Assembly (NCBI GenBank): GCA_913030835.1 | Contig: CAJWDP010000028.1 | Coordinates: forward strand, 1 to 40,970 | Length of the DNA stretch: 40,970 nt | Direction: 5' to 3' | Origin: an uncultured Flavobacteriales bacterium | GTDB lineage: Bacteria > Bacteroidota > Bacteroidia > Flavobacteriales_D > Parvicellaceae | In this document: in pieces, positions 2,737-38,287 of the stretch | Position numbering within the stretch: the first letter of the stretch is position 1 | Layout of the letters: each line of letters starts with the position of its first letter | Notes under the pieces: generated by a model | The model's input: only the letters and a program-made list of their open reading frames with translations | What the model was told of the DNA's origin: nothing | Databases searched by the model: none | Translations under genes and position numbers: made by a program

Positions 2737-4785
2737 ATGAAGTTTCTATATCCAGAATTTCTCTTAGCTCTCTTTGCGGTAGCCATTCCGATTATCATTC
2801 ATCTTTTCAATTTCAGAAAGTTCAGGAAGGTATTCTATTCTGACATACAGCTTTTAAAGGAATTGAAAATTGAAACCAAGAGCAGAGCAAGGCTTAAACA
2901 TTGGCTAATTTTAATCTGCCGAATTTTTGCCATTTGTTTTTTGGTATTCGCATTTGCTCAACCCTATATTCCCCTTGACAATCAAGTTGTTCGAGTTGGA
3001 AATAAGGCAGTGTCCATCTACGTAGATAATTCATTTAGTACAGAAGCAAATGGAGATAATGGCACCATCCTTCAACAAGAAAAAGAAAGAGCTCAGGATA
3101 TTGTTGATGAATACGAATCAGCGGATCGATTTCATTTGATCACAAATGATTTCGAAGGACACTTGCAGCGTACATTCAGCAAGGAAGAAATGGCCTTTTT
3201 GATCGAAGAAATAAAAGTATCTCCGGTTTCCAGAAATCTGAGTGAAGTTATCTTACGCCAACAGGATATACTCAACAATTCAGATATCCCGAATAAGCAA
3301 GCATATCTACTTTCTGATTTTCAAACTACTGTATCAGACTTTCATGCTATGGAATCGGATACTGGAATATCCACACGTCTGATGCCGTTTGAATCACTGA
3401 ACCAAAGTAATTTTTATATCGACAGTGTATGGTTTCAAACCCCGCACCGACAAAACTTTGAAGAAGAAACGATAATAGCAAGAATTGTCAATATTTCTGA
3501 CAAGGACGCTGAAGTTCGGGTTGAATTAGATATCAATGGAAAAAATCAAGGGTTCAATAATTACATTATCCCTTCAAACAATTTCAGTGATTGTGAATTC
3601 CACTATACCGTATTTGGTGACGGGATTCAGGAAGGGATATTACGTCTGGCAGATTATCCTGACCTCAGCATCGACTTCGACGACAATTTTTACTTCAGCT
3701 ACAACATTGCCAAGAACATCAATATTTTGATTGTTAGTGATGAAATAGACGATACTTCCTCCGGCCTAGGAGCAATATTGGGGTCTGTACCGAAATTCAA
3801 CTTAAGATTTAACAGATCAAGCGAAATTATCTATTCCGAATTCGCTAACGATAATTTGATCATACTCCGTGGTCTTAAAAGCATATCTTCCGGATTGAAT
3901 TCCGAGCTGTCAAAATTTATCGGTAACGGAGGAAATGTCTTACTCATCCCCAATCCAGAAATAGACATAAACAGCTACAACAGCTTTCTTAACAACATTA
4001 AAGCGGGGACGATCGTCAAAAAAGACACCAACTTGATAAAGGTCAAAGAAATTAACCTTTCTCATCCTTTATTCAAGGATATTTTTGAAAAAATACCCAA
4101 AAACGTGGATTTGCCATTGGCAAAATCCCATTATAAAATTGGTATTCCTACCAAATCCAACCATTCCTACCTAATGAGGTTGCAAAACGGCGATCCGTAT
4201 TTAACTGAGCACTCCTACCAGGATGGTCATTTGTACCTATCCGCCGTTGCAACTGATGACTCATTTGGCAATTTCATTAAACATGCCACAGTTCTTGCCG
4301 GAATCCTTAGAATTGCGGAATTCAGTCAAGAAAATCAACAACTTTATGGAATAATTGGAAAAGACAATTCCATCAAATTGAAGAACAAGAAGATCAGACC
4401 TGAAAACAGCAAAATTGCCGGTAACGGGATCGAATTTATTCCACAAATAAATACAACGAGGGGAACATCAACATTGATCTTGCATGATCAAATTCAATCA
4501 GCAAGCAATTATCGACTATTCGATGGTAACTCGCATCTTCGTTCGTATGGTTGGAATTACAACCGGAATGAATCAGATCCAAAAACACTAAGTATTTCTG
4601 AAATTGGTCAGCAGGTAAAAGAGAATAAACTGGATCAGACATTTAATGTGATCGAAACAAGTACTTCCAGCCCCATCAATAAGTTGAATAACTTAGCTGG
4701 TGGAGAAAAATACTGGAAATGGTTCATCATTTTGGTACTTTTAGCATTAGCATTAGAAATATTGATTTATCGCATATTCAAATAA
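2737..4785 (+). CDS. BatA-domain membrane protein with vWA-like region
   Basis: The N-terminus has the BatA / aerotolerance-regulator layout. A first membrane segment (~5-25, FLYPEFLLALFAVAIPIIIH) is followed by a basic loop with FRKFRKV and SDIQLL, then a second membrane segment (~54-77). After it, VSIYVDNSFST carries a DxSxS-like motif, the first part of a vWA metal-binding site, so a vWA-like fold is plausible. A long extracytoplasmic region follows, and a single C-terminal membrane segment (~660-680) ends in a short basic tail. It is longer than classic BatA and resembles the large BatA-like proteins common in Bacteroidota. It starts an operon: the dihydroorotase-like gene begins one base after its stop. 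The true function is unknown. Confidence 0.8.
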   Translation: MKFLYPEFLLALFAVAIPIIIHLFNFRKFRKVFYSDIQLLKELKIETKSRARLKHWLILICRIFAICFLVFAFAQPYIPLDNQVVRVGNKAVSIYVDNSFSTEANGDNGTILQQEKERAQDIVDEYESADRFHLITNDFEGHLQRTFSKEEMAFLIEEIKVSPVSRNLSEVILRQQDILNNSDIPNKQAYLLSDFQTTVSDFHAMESDTGISTRLMPFESLNQSNFYIDSVWFQTPHRQNFEEETIIARIVNISDKDAEVRVELDINGKNQGFNNYIIPSNNFSDCEFHYTVFGDGIQEGILRLADYPDLSIDFDDNFYFSYNIAKNINILIVSDEIDDTSSGLGAILGSVPKFNLRFNRSSEIIYSEFANDNLIILRGLKSISSGLNSELSKFIGNGGNVLLIPNPEIDINSYNSFLNNIKAGTIVKKDTNLIKVKEINLSHPLFKDIFEKIPKNVDLPLAKSHYKIGIPTKSNHSYLMRLQNGDPYLTEHSYQDGHLYLSAVATDDSFGNFIKHATVLAGILRIAEFSQENQQLYGIIGKDNSIKLKNKKIRPENSKIAGNGIEFIPQINTTRGTSTLILHDQIQSASNYRLFDGNSHLRSYGWNYNRNESDPKTLSISEIGQQVKENKLDQTFNVIETSTSSPINKLNNLAGGEKYWKWFIILVLLALALEILIYRIFK

Positions 4786-4786
4786 A

Positions 4787-6055
4787 ATGAAGGTATTGAT
4801 CAAAAAAACAACGGTTGTTGATCCCAATTCAGACTGGAATGGTAAAAAAGCCGATGTATTAATTGAAAACGGAATAATCAGTAAAATAGACGGTTCCATT
4901 GATGATCAGGAAGCAGAAATTATTGAGTTCGATAACCTTCACATTTCTCCCGGCTGGTTTGATCTCCACGTTAATTTCAGAGAACCCGGACACGAATACA
5001 AAGAAGACTTGTTGACCGGTATCGATGCAGCAATTGCAGGTGGTTTTACAGGAGTTGCACTGATGCCTTCAACATCCCCACCGATATCAAATAAATCAGG
5101 GATTGACTTTGTCCTCAACAAAACCCAACACTCACCTGTAGATGTCTACCCATGCGGAACAATTTCAGCAGATAAAAAAGGGGGAAATCTTTCTGAAATG
5201 TATGACATGAAAGAAGCCGGAGCAGTCGCTTTTACAGATGACAAAGACGCAATAGAACATTCCGGATTGATGTCGAGAGCACTTCTTTATGCAAAGAATT
5301 TTGACGGCCTGATAATGAGTTTTCCTTACGACAAAACAGCCCAGCCTAATGGGATGATGAATGAGGGCGTCACAAGCACTGAGCTGGGAATTGAAGGGAT
5401 TCCTGCTCTTGCCGAAGAATTACAAATTACCCGAGATCTTTATTTGACGGAATACAACGATTCAAAAATCCACTTTTCAACCATTTCAAGCCCGCGGGGA
5501 TTAGATCTTATTGCAGAGGCGAAGGAAGGCGGCATTCATGTTAGCTGTGATATCGCAATTCACAACCTGGTATTGAACGACGAATGCATCAAATCGTTCG
5601 ATTCAAATTTCAAAGTCCTACCCCCTCTCCGATCTGAAGAAGAGCGTGTTGAACTTGTTGAGGGCCTTAAAGACGGGACAATTGATGTGATTTGCTCCGA
5701 TCATTCTCCCGAAGACGTGGAGCATAAAAATTTGGAATTCGGAAGAGCAAACTTTGGGATAACCGGCTTGGAAACCCTTTTTGGGTTAGCAGTTACTCAT
5801 CTATCGAAAATACTTACCCTAGACGAGCTCATTAACAAGATCAGCATCAATCCGAGAACGATTCTAAGAGTTGATGTACCCATAATAAAAGAAGGATTCG
5901 AAGCGAATTTGACATTATTTGATCCAGCCAAAGAATGGACATTTTATGCTAAGAACAGCAAGAGTAAATCGAAAAACACACCGTTTGATGGATGCGAGCT
6001 GGTTGGAAAGCCACTTGGAATCTACAACAATAAAAAGCTCGAGCTGATTGGGTAA
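4787..6055 (+). CDS. Dihydroorotase-like amidohydrolase lacking metal-ligand histidines
   Basis: The 422-residue product has the full-length amidohydrolase fold of type I dihydroorotase, with FREPGHE (64-70), GGFTGVALMPST and SDHSPED near 304. The metal site is degraded. The HxH motif is HVN at 61-63. The usual HxED is SFPYD at 178-182. The usual HVST is TISS at 232-235. DHAPH is DHSPE at 305-309. Asp151/152 and Asp305 remain. Inactive dihydroorotase homologues of this kind (PyrC'-type) are known to act as structural partners of aspartate transcarbamoylase, so this is probably not the working pyrimidine enzyme. The family is certain and lack of activity is inferred. It is embedded in an operon after the BatA-like gene (1-base gap) and overlaps the next gene by 8 bases. 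Confidence 0.85.
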   Translation: MKVLIKKTTVVDPNSDWNGKKADVLIENGIISKIDGSIDDQEAEIIEFDNLHISPGWFDLHVNFREPGHEYKEDLLTGIDAAIAGGFTGVALMPSTSPPISNKSGIDFVLNKTQHSPVDVYPCGTISADKKGGNLSEMYDMKEAGAVAFTDDKDAIEHSGLMSRALLYAKNFDGLIMSFPYDKTAQPNGMMNEGVTSTELGIEGIPALAEELQITRDLYLTEYNDSKIHFSTISSPRGLDLIAEAKEGGIHVSCDIAIHNLVLNDECIKSFDSNFKVLPPLRSEEERVELVEGLKDGTIDVICSDHSPEDVEHKNLEFGRANFGITGLETLFGLAVTHLSKILTLDELINKISINPRTILRVDVPIIKEGFEANLTLFDPAKEWTFYAKNSKSKSKNTPFDGCELVGKPLGIYNNKKLELIG

Positions 6056-35045: not shown

Positions 35046-35936
35046 TTAAATCCAGTCAATACCTTTTTTGAGCAGTTCCATTGTATTTCGTTCTCTGCTA
35101 TTCCTTGGCTGATAATCATATATCCATGAGGCATCACGAGGTAAGCTCATTAATATGGATTCAATCCTGCCCGATGTTTCCAGTCCAAATTTGGTGCCCC
35201 GATCGTAGACTAAATTGAATTCAACATACCTTCCTCGCCTTAATCGCTGCCATTCTCTATCTTGCTCTACGATCGGATCAGCCCTATTTTCGGTTTGCTC
35301 TGTGTAGGCCGGAACAAAAGTCTGTCCAACAGCGAGTGTAAAGTCCAACAGTTCGTCCTTGGATAAATTAGATTTTTCTTCATCCAGCTTATCGTAAAAA
35401 ATACCTCCAACACCCCTGGTTTCCATCCGGTGCTTGTTGAAAAAGTAATCATCAGCCCATTCTTTGAACTTGGGATAAAAATCAGGTTGAAATTGATCGC
35501 AGGTATGCTTTAGCCTTTTGTGAAATTTGCTGGCGAGCGATCGATCAACAAAATGTGGAGTTAAATCAATTCCTCCACCGAACCAATAAGTTCCATCTCC
35601 CAGCTCAAAGTACCTTACATTCATGTGAATGATAGGAACATAGGGTGAATTTGGATGCAATACAATCGAAACTCCACACGCGAAAAATTCATTTTCCGTT
35701 GCACCCAATGAATTCTTTACCACATCCGGAAGCTTACCGTGAACAGCTGAAAAATTCACTCCCCCTTTTTCAATAAGATCACCATTTTCAATGATTCGAG
35801 TTCTTCCACCACCACCACCTTCGCGTACCCATTTATCTTCTCGAAATTTAGATCTGCCATCTAAATTCTCCAATCCAAGGCAAATTTCATCTTGTAGCAA
35901 CTCGAGGCTTTTCTGAACCGATTGATTGAACGACAT
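35046..35936 (-). CDS. hemF: Oxygen-dependent coproporphyrinogen III oxidase
   Basis: HemF converts coproporphyrinogen III to protoporphyrinogen IX with oxygen, in haem synthesis. The 296-residue product has GGGGRTRIIENG, EKGGVNFSAVHG, IHMNVRYFE, YWFGGGIDLTPHF (active-site region) and GRYVEFNLVYDRGTKFGL, all typical. It shares a base with the upstream stop (TAATG), so it is expressed with whatever precedes it; the gene before it here is the hybrid 35936-38287 frame. It is convergent with the LolA-like gene, 10 bases apart. Confidence 0.96.
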   Translation of the reverse strand: MSFNQSVQKSLELLQDEICLGLENLDGRSKFREDKWVREGGGGGRTRIIENGDLIEKGGVNFSAVHGKLPDVVKNSLGATENEFFACGVSIVLHPNSPYVPIIHMNVRYFELGDGTYWFGGGIDLTPHFVDRSLASKFHKRLKHTCDQFQPDFYPKFKEWADDYFFNKHRMETRGVGGIFYDKLDEEKSNLSKDELLDFTLAVGQTFVPAYTEQTENRADPIVEQDREWQRLRRGRYVEFNLVYDRGTKFGLETSGRIESILMSLPRDASWIYDYQPRNSRERNTMELLKKGIDWI

Positions 35937-38287
35937 TACTTTTTACGAATTAGCTTATAGTCTTCGTATGCCAGGATAAATACCTGCTGATTTTCATAGC
36001 CACTGCCCTCTCCCACTAACTCGTAGTTGAAAGCTGTATGCAGATGATCCAATTGAATGTAATTGAGTCGAGACGCAAAACCTTTTCCAAAATGAAGCAA
36101 TCCTGCCAAATGTTGCATCATCACATCGAATCCCATAAACGAATACAATCCTGGGTCGTTTTGATATTTTTTTCTGAATCGTTTGATAAAATCGATCGTC
36201 TTAGCTGAGCTGTAATCGACGTACTTTGATGACGACAAATGAACGTGAAAATCATTGATGTATTCGTAGTCGATCTGTTTGAATTTTTTCCATTCTTCTA
36301 CACCGAAAACTACAAACTTAACATCTCTCATTCCCTGATCATTCTTAACCTTATTCAAGTCGGTAAGAAATGAACTGACATATCCAATGTTTCTCGATGG
36401 CACGATCAACACATTGGTTCCAGTCATATTTAAGTACGGATACATATTTTTTAGGTCAACGCCCTTTTCAATGATTGCCAGCGTATCTCTATACTTGGCT
36501 GTGTCGCCATCTGTTAATTCATTGTATCTTCTCTCGAATACCTTGGCAAAATAGGACTGGTCCTTTGCGTCTTTATTATCAAAAAGAATAACACTCTGCG
36601 TGGCAAAAGAGTCTGCAACGTATTGTGCAATCGCATTCATTTGGGTAGGAATTGAAGCGATAGCTTTAGTTACGAATGGATTTTTGAACAATAATTTATT
36701 TGATGAATTAACCGGAGAGACAAACTGTATTTTATTCGCTAAGGCATAATCAGCGACTAACGGTTGTGTGGAATGAGACAATGGTCCAAATATTAGATCC
36801 AGACTTTTGACTTCATTTTTTGACAAAATATTGCGCACAATTCCAGTATCTCCTTTCGTATCATAAACATGCAAGTTGACCGACAAACCTGCTGACCTCA
36901 TGGAATCAACAGCCATTTCTACACCTTGATAAAATTCCACTGCCCGAATGGTTGGAATGAATGGTTTGCAATCTCCAACGGGTGGGCATTTCAGCAATTC
37001 TTCATCAAATTTATCCAGTTTAAAAGGCAGAAAGACCCCGACATTATATACTTCCTTTTTCAGAATGCTATCTACCCATTCCGCCTGATTGAAAGCTGGG
37101 TTGGCCAATGTGTCCACAGGCACTTGTTTTGGCCTTTTCACTTTCAGGGGAATCCTAATTTCTTGCCCCCTTTTTAAAACCACTAAATTTTCCGCAAAAT
37201 TTCTTAACTCACGAATATTACCAGGCCATGAATAATTCTGAAGAATAGAAACGGCTTCCTGAGACAAAACAGGAGACTCGAAACCGTTTTCTTCCGAAAA
37301 TGTGTGCAAAAAATGATGCAATAAAAGCATAATGTCATCACCTCTTTGACGCAGAGGTGGAAGCTCTATGCTTACAACATTTAACCGGTAATACAGATCT
37401 TCCCTGAACTCACCTGCTTGAGACATTTCCAAAAGGTTTCTGTTTGTTGCACAAACCAATCGTACATCTAAGTCCAATGATTTTGAACTGCCTATCCGTT
37501 CAATGGATTTACTTTCCAAAAACCTCAGTAACTTTACTTGAGTAGAGGCATCAATTTCACCAATTTCATCCAAAAAAAGCGTACCACCATTCGCTGATTC
37601 GAATCGGCCTATTCTTTTCTCATTTGCACCGGTAAAGGCACCTTTCTCGTGACCAAATAATTCACTTTCCAAAAGATTTGCGGGCAACGCAGCACAATGA
37701 ACCGGGACAAATGGAGCATTCTTACGCTCACTATTTTGATGAATTGAATGAGCAAAAAGCTCCTTACCAGTGCCTGTTTCACCTGTGAAAAGAACAGTCG
37801 TTTTTGTAGGACCAACCAGACGCACCTTTTCCATTACCGATTCAAGTGAGGCTGATTTACCAAGAATTCCATCGAATTTAGACTTATTGTCTACTTTCTG
37901 AACATGAATATTTTCCTTTGTTTGTGATTGCTCTTTGAGGCCACGCTTAATCAGAAATTCAAGTTGCTCCAGGTTTACTGGTTTTGGGAGAAAATCAAAG
38001 GCACCTCGCTTCATCGCCTCCACCGCAACATCTACTTCACCATAAGCAGTCATCATGATACAAAGTGGTTTACGGGTAAGTTTATTGATATAATCAAGGA
38101 CGCTCATACCAGTCTCTCCTGGCATCCTTAAGTCAGTAAGTACTACCTGGAAATCCTCTTCGTTGAGAACCGTAACTGCTTCCTCTACGCAACTTGCCGT
38201 GAAAACCTCAAATTCATCCTCAAGTGCCAATTCAAGACCATCCCTAGTATTTTGCTCATCATCAACAATAAGTAAATTTGGTCTCAT
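35936..38287 (-). CDS. Hybrid frame: NtrC-type regulator fused to LysM tail and periplasmic binding protein-like domain
   Basis: The 783-residue frame has two unlike halves. Residues 1-371 are a sigma-54 response regulator: receiver (Asp9/10, phospho-acceptor Asp52 in LTDLRMPG, Lys102), then AAA+ with Walker A GETGTGKE (169-176), GAFTGA (216-221), Walker B LFLDEIGE and WPGNIRELRN. The expected Fis-type DNA-binding domain is absent. At ~372-378 the sequence becomes GQEIRIPLKVKRP, which is how LysM domains end. From ~413 (YNVGVFLPF) there is a type 1 periplasmic binding protein-like domain, common in Bacteroidota LysM proteins. No membrane segment or signal lies between. A periplasmic-type domain on a cytoplasmic regulator is improbable, so this is either a real fusion from deletion or transfer, or a chimeric contig. 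Confidence 0.8.
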   Translation of the reverse strand: MRPNLLIVDDEQNTRDGLELALEDEFEVFTASCVEEAVTVLNEEDFQVVLTDLRMPGETGMSVLDYINKLTRKPLCIMMTAYGEVDVAVEAMKRGAFDFLPKPVNLEQLEFLIKRGLKEQSQTKENIHVQKVDNKSKFDGILGKSASLESVMEKVRLVGPTKTTVLFTGETGTGKELFAHSIHQNSERKNAPFVPVHCAALPANLLESELFGHEKGAFTGANEKRIGRFESANGGTLFLDEIGEIDASTQVKLLRFLESKSIERIGSSKSLDLDVRLVCATNRNLLEMSQAGEFREDLYYRLNVVSIELPPLRQRGDDIMLLLHHFLHTFSEENGFESPVLSQEAVSILQNYSWPGNIRELRNFAENLVVLKRGQEIRIPLKVKRPKQVPVDTLANPAFNQAEWVDSILKKEVYNVGVFLPFKLDKFDEELLKCPPVGDCKPFIPTIRAVEFYQGVEMAVDSMRSAGLSVNLHVYDTKGDTGIVRNILSKNEVKSLDLIFGPLSHSTQPLVADYALANKIQFVSPVNSSNKLLFKNPFVTKAIASIPTQMNAIAQYVADSFATQSVILFDNKDAKDQSYFAKVFERRYNELTDGDTAKYRDTLAIIEKGVDLKNMYPYLNMTGTNVLIVPSRNIGYVSSFLTDLNKVKNDQGMRDVKFVVFGVEEWKKFKQIDYEYINDFHVHLSSSKYVDYSSAKTIDFIKRFRKKYQNDPGLYSFMGFDVMMQHLAGLLHFGKGFASRLNYIQLDHLHTAFNYELVGEGSGYENQQVFILAYEDYKLIRKK
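37150..37176 (-). other. Domain-switch point of the hybrid gene
   Basis: These bases encode residues 371-379 (LKRGQEIRI). The left context (ENLVVLKRG) is the usual end of an NtrC AAA+ C-subdomain. The right context (GQEIRIPLK) is the usual LysM ending. The two families share little beyond this short stretch, so the switch is placed here to within about ten codons. Confidence 0.6.

Follow-up and report, generated by a model that had tools for sequence, protein, structure and literature searches.

A dihydroorotase homologue that has lost its metal site, and its probable partnership with aspartate transcarbamoylase in a class of Bacteroidota

Background

What is the use of a protein that keeps the fold of dihydroorotase (DHOase) and gives up residues that hold its metal? 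The question is raised by a single gene in the window, by which we mean the whole stretch of 40,970 nucleotides analysed here, from an uncultured Flavobacteriales bacterium. An earlier note, made from the sequence, had considered the protein likely to be catalytically dead and kept for another purpose, either as a partner of aspartate transcarbamoylase (ATCase) or in a role with the BatA-like protein encoded next to it. Precedents exist for such partners: PMC7053772 describes bacterial ATCases in which PyrB is associated with an active or an inactive DHOase (classes A1 and A2), with PyrI (class B) or with no other chain (class C), and reports that the ATCase of P. aeruginosa requires its inactive DHOase chain, pDHO. 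Below, pDHO also designates the metal-less homologues of the kind found in the window, where the protein is called P0001.

Results

A whole-length homologue with an incomplete metal site

The gene runs from ATG to TAA, with exact boundaries (Table 1), and its 422-aa product is homologous to type-I DHOase over its whole length according to phmmer, the profile TIGR00857, an AlphaFold2 model and a fold search. Its best phmmer match is the DHOase of Aquifex aeolicus, aligned with residues 1-411 (E about 5e-86). P0001 passes the NCBIfam model TIGR00857 'dihydroorotase' with 344.6 bits (cut-off 279), a model that matches all 27 scanned members of its family, and the narrower equivalog models that match it all stay below their own cut-offs. 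The AlphaFold2 model, built on an alignment of 27 family members, has a mean pLDDT of 92.7 and a pTM of 0.92; its top match in the PDB is 4yiw of B. anthracis (TM 0.94, 35% identity), followed by 3d6n of Aquifex (TM 0.94, 38% identity). Fold and length of type-I DHOase are thus kept, as the earlier note had proposed.

Table 1. Features of the locus, and the second dihydroorotase of the same genome
Feature	Position	Strand	Evidence
BatA-like protein, directly upstream of pDHO	2737..4785	+	PF07584 73 bits, TIGR02226
Metal-less type-I DHOase homologue (pDHO)	4787..6055	+	ORF, TIGR00857, AlphaFold2 model
HVNFR, aligned with HxHxR; keeps His61 and Arg65, has Asn for His63	4967..4981	+	Aquifex DHOase alignment
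Asp151 kept, equivalent to Aquifex ligand Asp153	5237..5239	+	Aquifex DHOase alignment
Phe179 in place of β-site His180	5321..5323	+	Aquifex DHOase alignment
Thr232 in place of β-site His232	5480..5482	+	Aquifex DHOase alignment
DHSPE; Asp305 and His306 kept, last His of Aquifex DHAPH replaced by Glu	5699..5713	+	Aquifex alignment
Second DHOase, own genome	contig C17, L001:1345-2682		PRK09236 over cut-off

The motifs singled out in the earlier note are present as described in both the translation and the Aquifex alignment: HVN (residues 61-63), SFPYD (178-182), TISS (232-235) and DHSPE (305-309). Three of the six metal ligands are kept (His61, Asp151, Asp305), one more than had been counted, and three are lost, with Asn replacing His63, Phe replacing His180 and Thr replacing His232. 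The claim that nothing but the two Asp positions is left is wrong, for His61, the first His of HxH, stays too. At the substrate site, which we take to include Arg65, Asn95 and His309, Arg65 is kept and the other two positions are lost, to Ser and Glu respectively.

The weight of these losses differs between sites. According to PMC3880350, the α site of Aquifex DHOase is formed by His61, His63 and Asp153, with Asp305 near, whereas His180 and His232 make up a putative β site, and activity is unchanged when both β-site histidines are replaced by Ala; the argument that the missing histidines of HxED and HVST prove P0001 dead was rejected on this ground. The α site of an active type-I DHOase is itself incomplete in P0001, His63 being Asn. 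A further warning comes from Pseudomonas, where a PyrC paralogue with predicted Zur regulation resembles P0001 as a DHOase paralogue with unconserved zinc residues and differs in being reported active (PMC2770081): by analogy, absent zinc ligands need not mean inactivity. P0001, which retains His61, Asp151, Asp305 and Arg65, might therefore still be a DHOase that uses one metal, a different metal or no metal at all and serves as a backup, for instance under zinc shortage. Its sequence by itself would leave activity open; the family appears to settle more, and makes continued DHOase activity unlikely in our view.

A loss common to one clade and maintained by selection

Searches with P0001 at E <= 0.001 gave matches in 140 of the 148 genomes of a phylum-wide sample and in 176 of the 178 sampled from the class of the window's genome; the weak matches that were fetched are the second DHOase described below, related enzymes or very divergent pDHO. 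Strong matches, defined by E <= 1e-50, occur in 149 of the 178 class genomes, 47 of them unread, and include one intact type-I enzyme (G072). The metal-less class sequences compared here number 123, from 117 genomes and six named contigs (Hufsiella, Pararcticibacter, a Chryseobacterium, a Cryomorphaceae and two Flavobacteriales records); two named contigs, L016 and L017, are identical or nearly so to the copy of G045, yet are counted among the six. From these names we take the class to be Bacteroidia. The metal-less sequence of G172 and the very degenerate copies of family f72 (G219, G249) lie outside the 123. Family f72 genomes also have low-scoring PyrB and PyrC. In the other classes of the phylum, 76 of the 81 sequences read keep all six ligands, the metal-less exceptions being four of family f11 and that of G096; the 20 unread of the 101 strong matches from these classes in the phylum sample all belong to family f16.

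A FastTree phylogeny of 201 sequences, with six read f16 sequences left out, groups the 123 in one clade (support 99), and the metal state requires 3 changes on this tree against a mean of 59 in shuffles; long branches are flagged, and the placement of G096, f11 and G072 is uncertain. Loss of the metal site is old and common to the clade. Since all 123 class sequences form one clade with the same loss, that of P0001 is neither due to chance nor the mark of a single decayed copy.

As 'intact' stands for the presence of the six ligands in the tree, locus and column comparisons, invariance of the ligands in that set follows from its definition, and we give counts by taxon instead, with the 81 sequences from other classes as reference. 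His61 is kept in 14 of the 123 clade members, His63 in 17, Asp153 in 107, His180 in 33, His232 in 7 and Asp305 in 87, against 78, 76, 81, 76, 77 and 77, respectively, of the 81. Two clade members retain all four α-site ligands, at least one being lost in the other 121, and three retain both His61 and His63. The four His columns lie between the 62nd and 92nd percentile of variability among 417 columns, and the two Asp columns, at percentiles 13 and 32, are still rather conserved. Substrate positions drift too: Arg65 is kept in 34 of the 123, Asn95 in 44 and His309 in 12 (76, 80 and 75 of the 81). This family-wide loss of α site and substrate residues is a better argument for inactivity than the loss of the β site, and it weighs against continued DHOase activity, as a zinc-free catalyst would be expected to keep some fixed residues at the substrate positions.

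Constraint on the gene is nonetheless strong. Of 11 close metal-less pairs, nine give dN/dS estimates of 0.034 to 0.102 (one from f11, five with dS over 1) and the other two have saturated dS; all six intact pairs give 0.027 to 0.082. Where measurable, metal-less genes are under purifying selection. Absence of the catalytic residues and the degenerate f72 copies (about 118 bits against the clade profile) would fit a decaying remnant without function, but the selection estimate already contradicts it, and so do the confident predicted fold and the long open frames among the class matches listed, one of which (G199) is split in two. We regard a mere remnant as extremely unlikely. The protein instead appears to be retained for something other than the old reaction.

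That something might be a different enzymatic or ligand-binding function. Strong constraint is compatible with it, as are the many conserved residues, including His306 (kept in 122 of the 123) and Pro279 and Gly324 (conserved at 1.00 in the clade). Yet the former active-site positions differ by lineage, with no new fixed set seen, and most of the best-conserved positions carry the same residue as in intact DHOases; an acquired function of this kind is thus very unlikely.

A second dihydroorotase in the same genomes

The genome of the window encodes another DHOase on contig C17, a protein of 445 aa that scores 733 bits against PRK09236 (cut-off 535) and resembles the P. gingivalis structure 2gwn. 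The earlier note had called for a search for a second pyrC with intact ligands: a second enzyme is there, but one of its metal positions is Gln, in place of the first His of HxH (QVH). The same holds for 2gwn, and among 21 sequences of the PRK09236 type this position is Gln in 12 and His in 9.

PRK09236 is over cut-off in 38 of the 148 genomes of the phylum sample: 36 of the 37 class members (all but G072, which is intact), G087 and G109. All 34 metal-less class genomes of this sample have it, which further argues against P0001 still being a DHOase, compared with one (G087) of the 76 intact genomes read from other classes; in G087 both types of DHOase occur, each intact. Outside the class, each of the metal-less f11 genomes contains, away from the first, another DHOase-like match of lower score, and G096 has one of 457 bits, below the PRK09236 cut-off. 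The class sample gives 157 of 178 genomes over cut-off. Strong P0001 matches without it are found in the intact G072 and in G223, G227, G168, G167 and G226: the best match of G223 reaches E 1.2e-146 and is still below cut-off; G227, rated 100% complete, has a metal-less pDHO and no PRK09236 match better than 6e-18; completeness is 97% for G168, 91% for G167 and 85% for G226. Assembly gaps or another type of enzyme are possible explanations in these five. Together with the family pattern, the second DHOase lends good support to the proposal that P0001 is dead, as we infer, and kept for another purpose.

Gene order around the metal-less homologue

The pDHO gene of the window starts one base after the stop of the BatA-like gene. 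At its other end it overlaps with the next ORF, listed from 6048, which encodes a PMT_2-type protein. Upstream of the BatA-like gene, positions 596-2683 encode a 695-aa protein with a SPOR domain and a PorG-like match below cut-off. In a 783-aa ORF farther away (35936-38287, minus strand), an NtrC-like response regulator with receiver, sigma-54 domain and lid is followed by a C-terminal half that faintly resembles a periplasmic binding protein (27 bits, under the cut-off); this ORF is either a fusion or an assembly artefact.

Within the flanks fetched, 99 of 122 metal-less class loci have a same-strand BatA-like gene upstream, against none of 72 intact loci and none of the 5 metal-less loci of other classes. 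This conservation, and the single base between the two genes in the window, could mean that P0001 works with the BatA-like protein in the cell envelope and has no part in pyrimidine synthesis. The neighbourhood is missing, however, from 23 of the 122 loci (two of them cut by the contig end), the f11 metal-less gene adjoins pyrB instead, and strong P0001 matches are absent both from the PyrI genomes of the class sample and from a genus without a PyrB match. An envelope role in place of one in pyrimidine synthesis therefore seems improbable: of the earlier note's suggestion, the conserved neighbour stands, whereas nothing found bears out a functional link.

The pyrB gene is itself a neighbour in part of the family. 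Of the loci with flanks, 19 of 70 intact type-I ones have it immediately upstream, as do 4 of 110 metal-less ones, namely all four of f11. The inactive DHOase gene of Pseudomonas usually lies next to pyrB (pyrBC'), an arrangement that does not define the class, and the f11 order, with a metal-less homologue behind pyrB, presumably corresponds to it. No pyrB was found near class metal-less loci in flanks of up to about 3 kb. The two genes are likewise apart in the window's genome, with pDHO on contig C28 and pyrB on C19, the latter preceded by a phosphoribosyltransferase gene that is probably pyrR.

Metal-less homologues, PyrB lineages and PyrI

PyrB is encoded on C19 in the window's genome, and no match to PyrI was found in this draft of 86 contigs (99.95% complete). 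Over the class sample, PyrB is over cut-off in 167 of 178 genomes and PyrI in 7; an eighth match to PyrI, in G029, is weak: it stays under the cut-off and contains stops. None of the seven PyrI genomes has a strong P0001 match (E <= 1e-50). The corresponding Fisher p of 1.6e-6 is an overstatement, since the split between PyrI and pDHO follows whole families and orders and hence few evolutionary events.

In one order of the class, that of G212, PyrI is common, with 170 of 198 genomes scoring over its cut-off; family f88 (G272, G299), absent from the sample of this order, also has it. The sole strong profile match in the order, in G414, a genome with PyrI not over cut-off, was set aside as a pDHO candidate: it is an intact type-I PyrC, located about 3.6 kb from pyrB and adjoining ORFs that we interpret as pyrF, pyrD and pyrK. 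This stretch of G414 (L288, L263) appears to be a replaced pathway module within the PyrI order. Weaker profile matches of 140-187 bits in the same order were also discarded, the four fetched (G381, G453, G352, G383) being PyrC of the PRK09236 type; as the others are unread and a genuine but divergent pDHO can fall in this range (G172, 164 bits), absence of pDHO from the order is unproven.

PMC6022934 distinguishes two ATCase families, ATC I and ATC II. A tree of 30 PyrB sequences, with five long branches flagged, falls into two sides across a branch with support 100: one holds five PyrI genomes, G414 and G232, and the other 14 pDHO genomes, seven intact type-I genomes, G012 and G185. The metal-less homologue thus goes with the PyrB lineage of DHOase-bearing genomes. 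In favour of co-occurrence, one genus (G182, G217, G247) has no match to PyrB, no strong P0001 match and no PRK09236 over cut-off, and perhaps lacks a de novo pyrimidine route. Against it, two assemblies lack a PyrB match, G163 (230 contigs, pDHO with its metal site read) and G284 (360 contigs, a strong P0001 match with its metal site unread), possibly through assembly gaps. Conversely, G012 and G232 have PyrB without PyrI or a strong pDHO match, so a partner chain is dispensable in some genomes. In family f48, G232 (L264) combines a PyrB from the PyrI-associated side of the tree with neither PyrI nor a strong pDHO match, and G287 has two PyrB matches over 320 bits; contamination of these draft genomes may be involved.

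Discussion

By analogy with the class A2 ATCase of Pseudomonas, P0001 is probably a non-catalytic partner of PyrB, encoded away from pyrB. Of the two purposes suggested in the earlier note, the ATCase partnership has the better support: the PyrB lineage with which pDHO occurs, the absence of PyrI and the adjacency to pyrB in some intact relatives and one metal-less lineage (f11) all point to it. Against it stand the separation of pDHO from pyrB in the window's genome and in the class loci, the pDHO or strong P0001 matches without PyrB (G163, G284), the PyrB genomes with neither partner (G012, G232), the two DHOase types of G087 and the poor PRK09236 match of G227. Physical binding to PyrB, the mode of assembly, the lack of activity and any regulation are what we infer from these patterns. 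P0001 would then be a structural, and possibly regulatory, chain associated with the PyrB encoded on C19, while the dihydroorotase reaction would be carried out by the DHOase of C17. As in the Aquifex and Pseudomonas complexes, pDHO dimers may bridge two PyrB trimers into a dodecamer, taking the place of the PyrI dimers used by other bacteria.

Each known system matches this proposal in part. The pDHO (PyrC') of Pseudomonas class A2 is an inactive, DHOase-like partner of PyrB of about 45 kDa (PMC7053772), and its zinc residues are likewise unconserved (PMC2770081). The window gene, in contrast, is unlinked to pyrB and stands behind a BatA-like gene, its family is spread over much of a class, and its partnership with PyrB is a proposed one. 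Class A1 is represented by the ATCase-DHOase of Aquifex aeolicus (PDB 3d6n), akin to P0001 in sequence and fold and to the phylum's intact relatives in their pyrB-pyrC loci; the Aquifex DHOase differs in having all metal ligands and being active in the complex. Class B offers a proposed counterpart in PyrI, a second chain bridging PyrB trimers, which nevertheless is of a different protein family and accompanies a different PyrB lineage.

A plausible course of events can be drawn from these distributions. The ancestor probably had a pyrB-pyrC pair with an active, complexed DHOase. A second DHOase would have arrived, after which the first could lose catalysis and stay as the partner of PyrB; its gene would later have come to stand behind the BatA-like gene, and part of the class would have acquired another PyrB together with PyrI and lost pDHO. 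The place of the gene, which in much of the class immediately follows that of a BatA-like membrane protein, also invites the thought that pDHO goes beyond a scaffold and ties ATCase assembly, and through it the entry into the pyrimidine pathway, to envelope state; we give this extension a slim chance.

The kind of protein is already known, an inactive DHOase acting as ATCase partner. Titles and abstract openings searched, with few subscription papers among them, contained no inactive DHOase from Bacteroidota. Relative to that literature, the novelty would lie in its probable occurrence in much of the class, in a location apart from the pyr genes and in the way it alternates with PyrI. If the proposal is true, much of the class carries a protein that family models take for a DHOase and that makes no dihydroorotate, and pathway models and target lists that count it as a DHOase would be wrong. 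Class A2 ATCases would extend from the studied species of Pseudomonas to a large part of a phylum, and the class would provide a natural comparison between a dead-enzyme partner and PyrI, a regulatory chain of another family, each replacing the other together with a switch of PyrB lineage.
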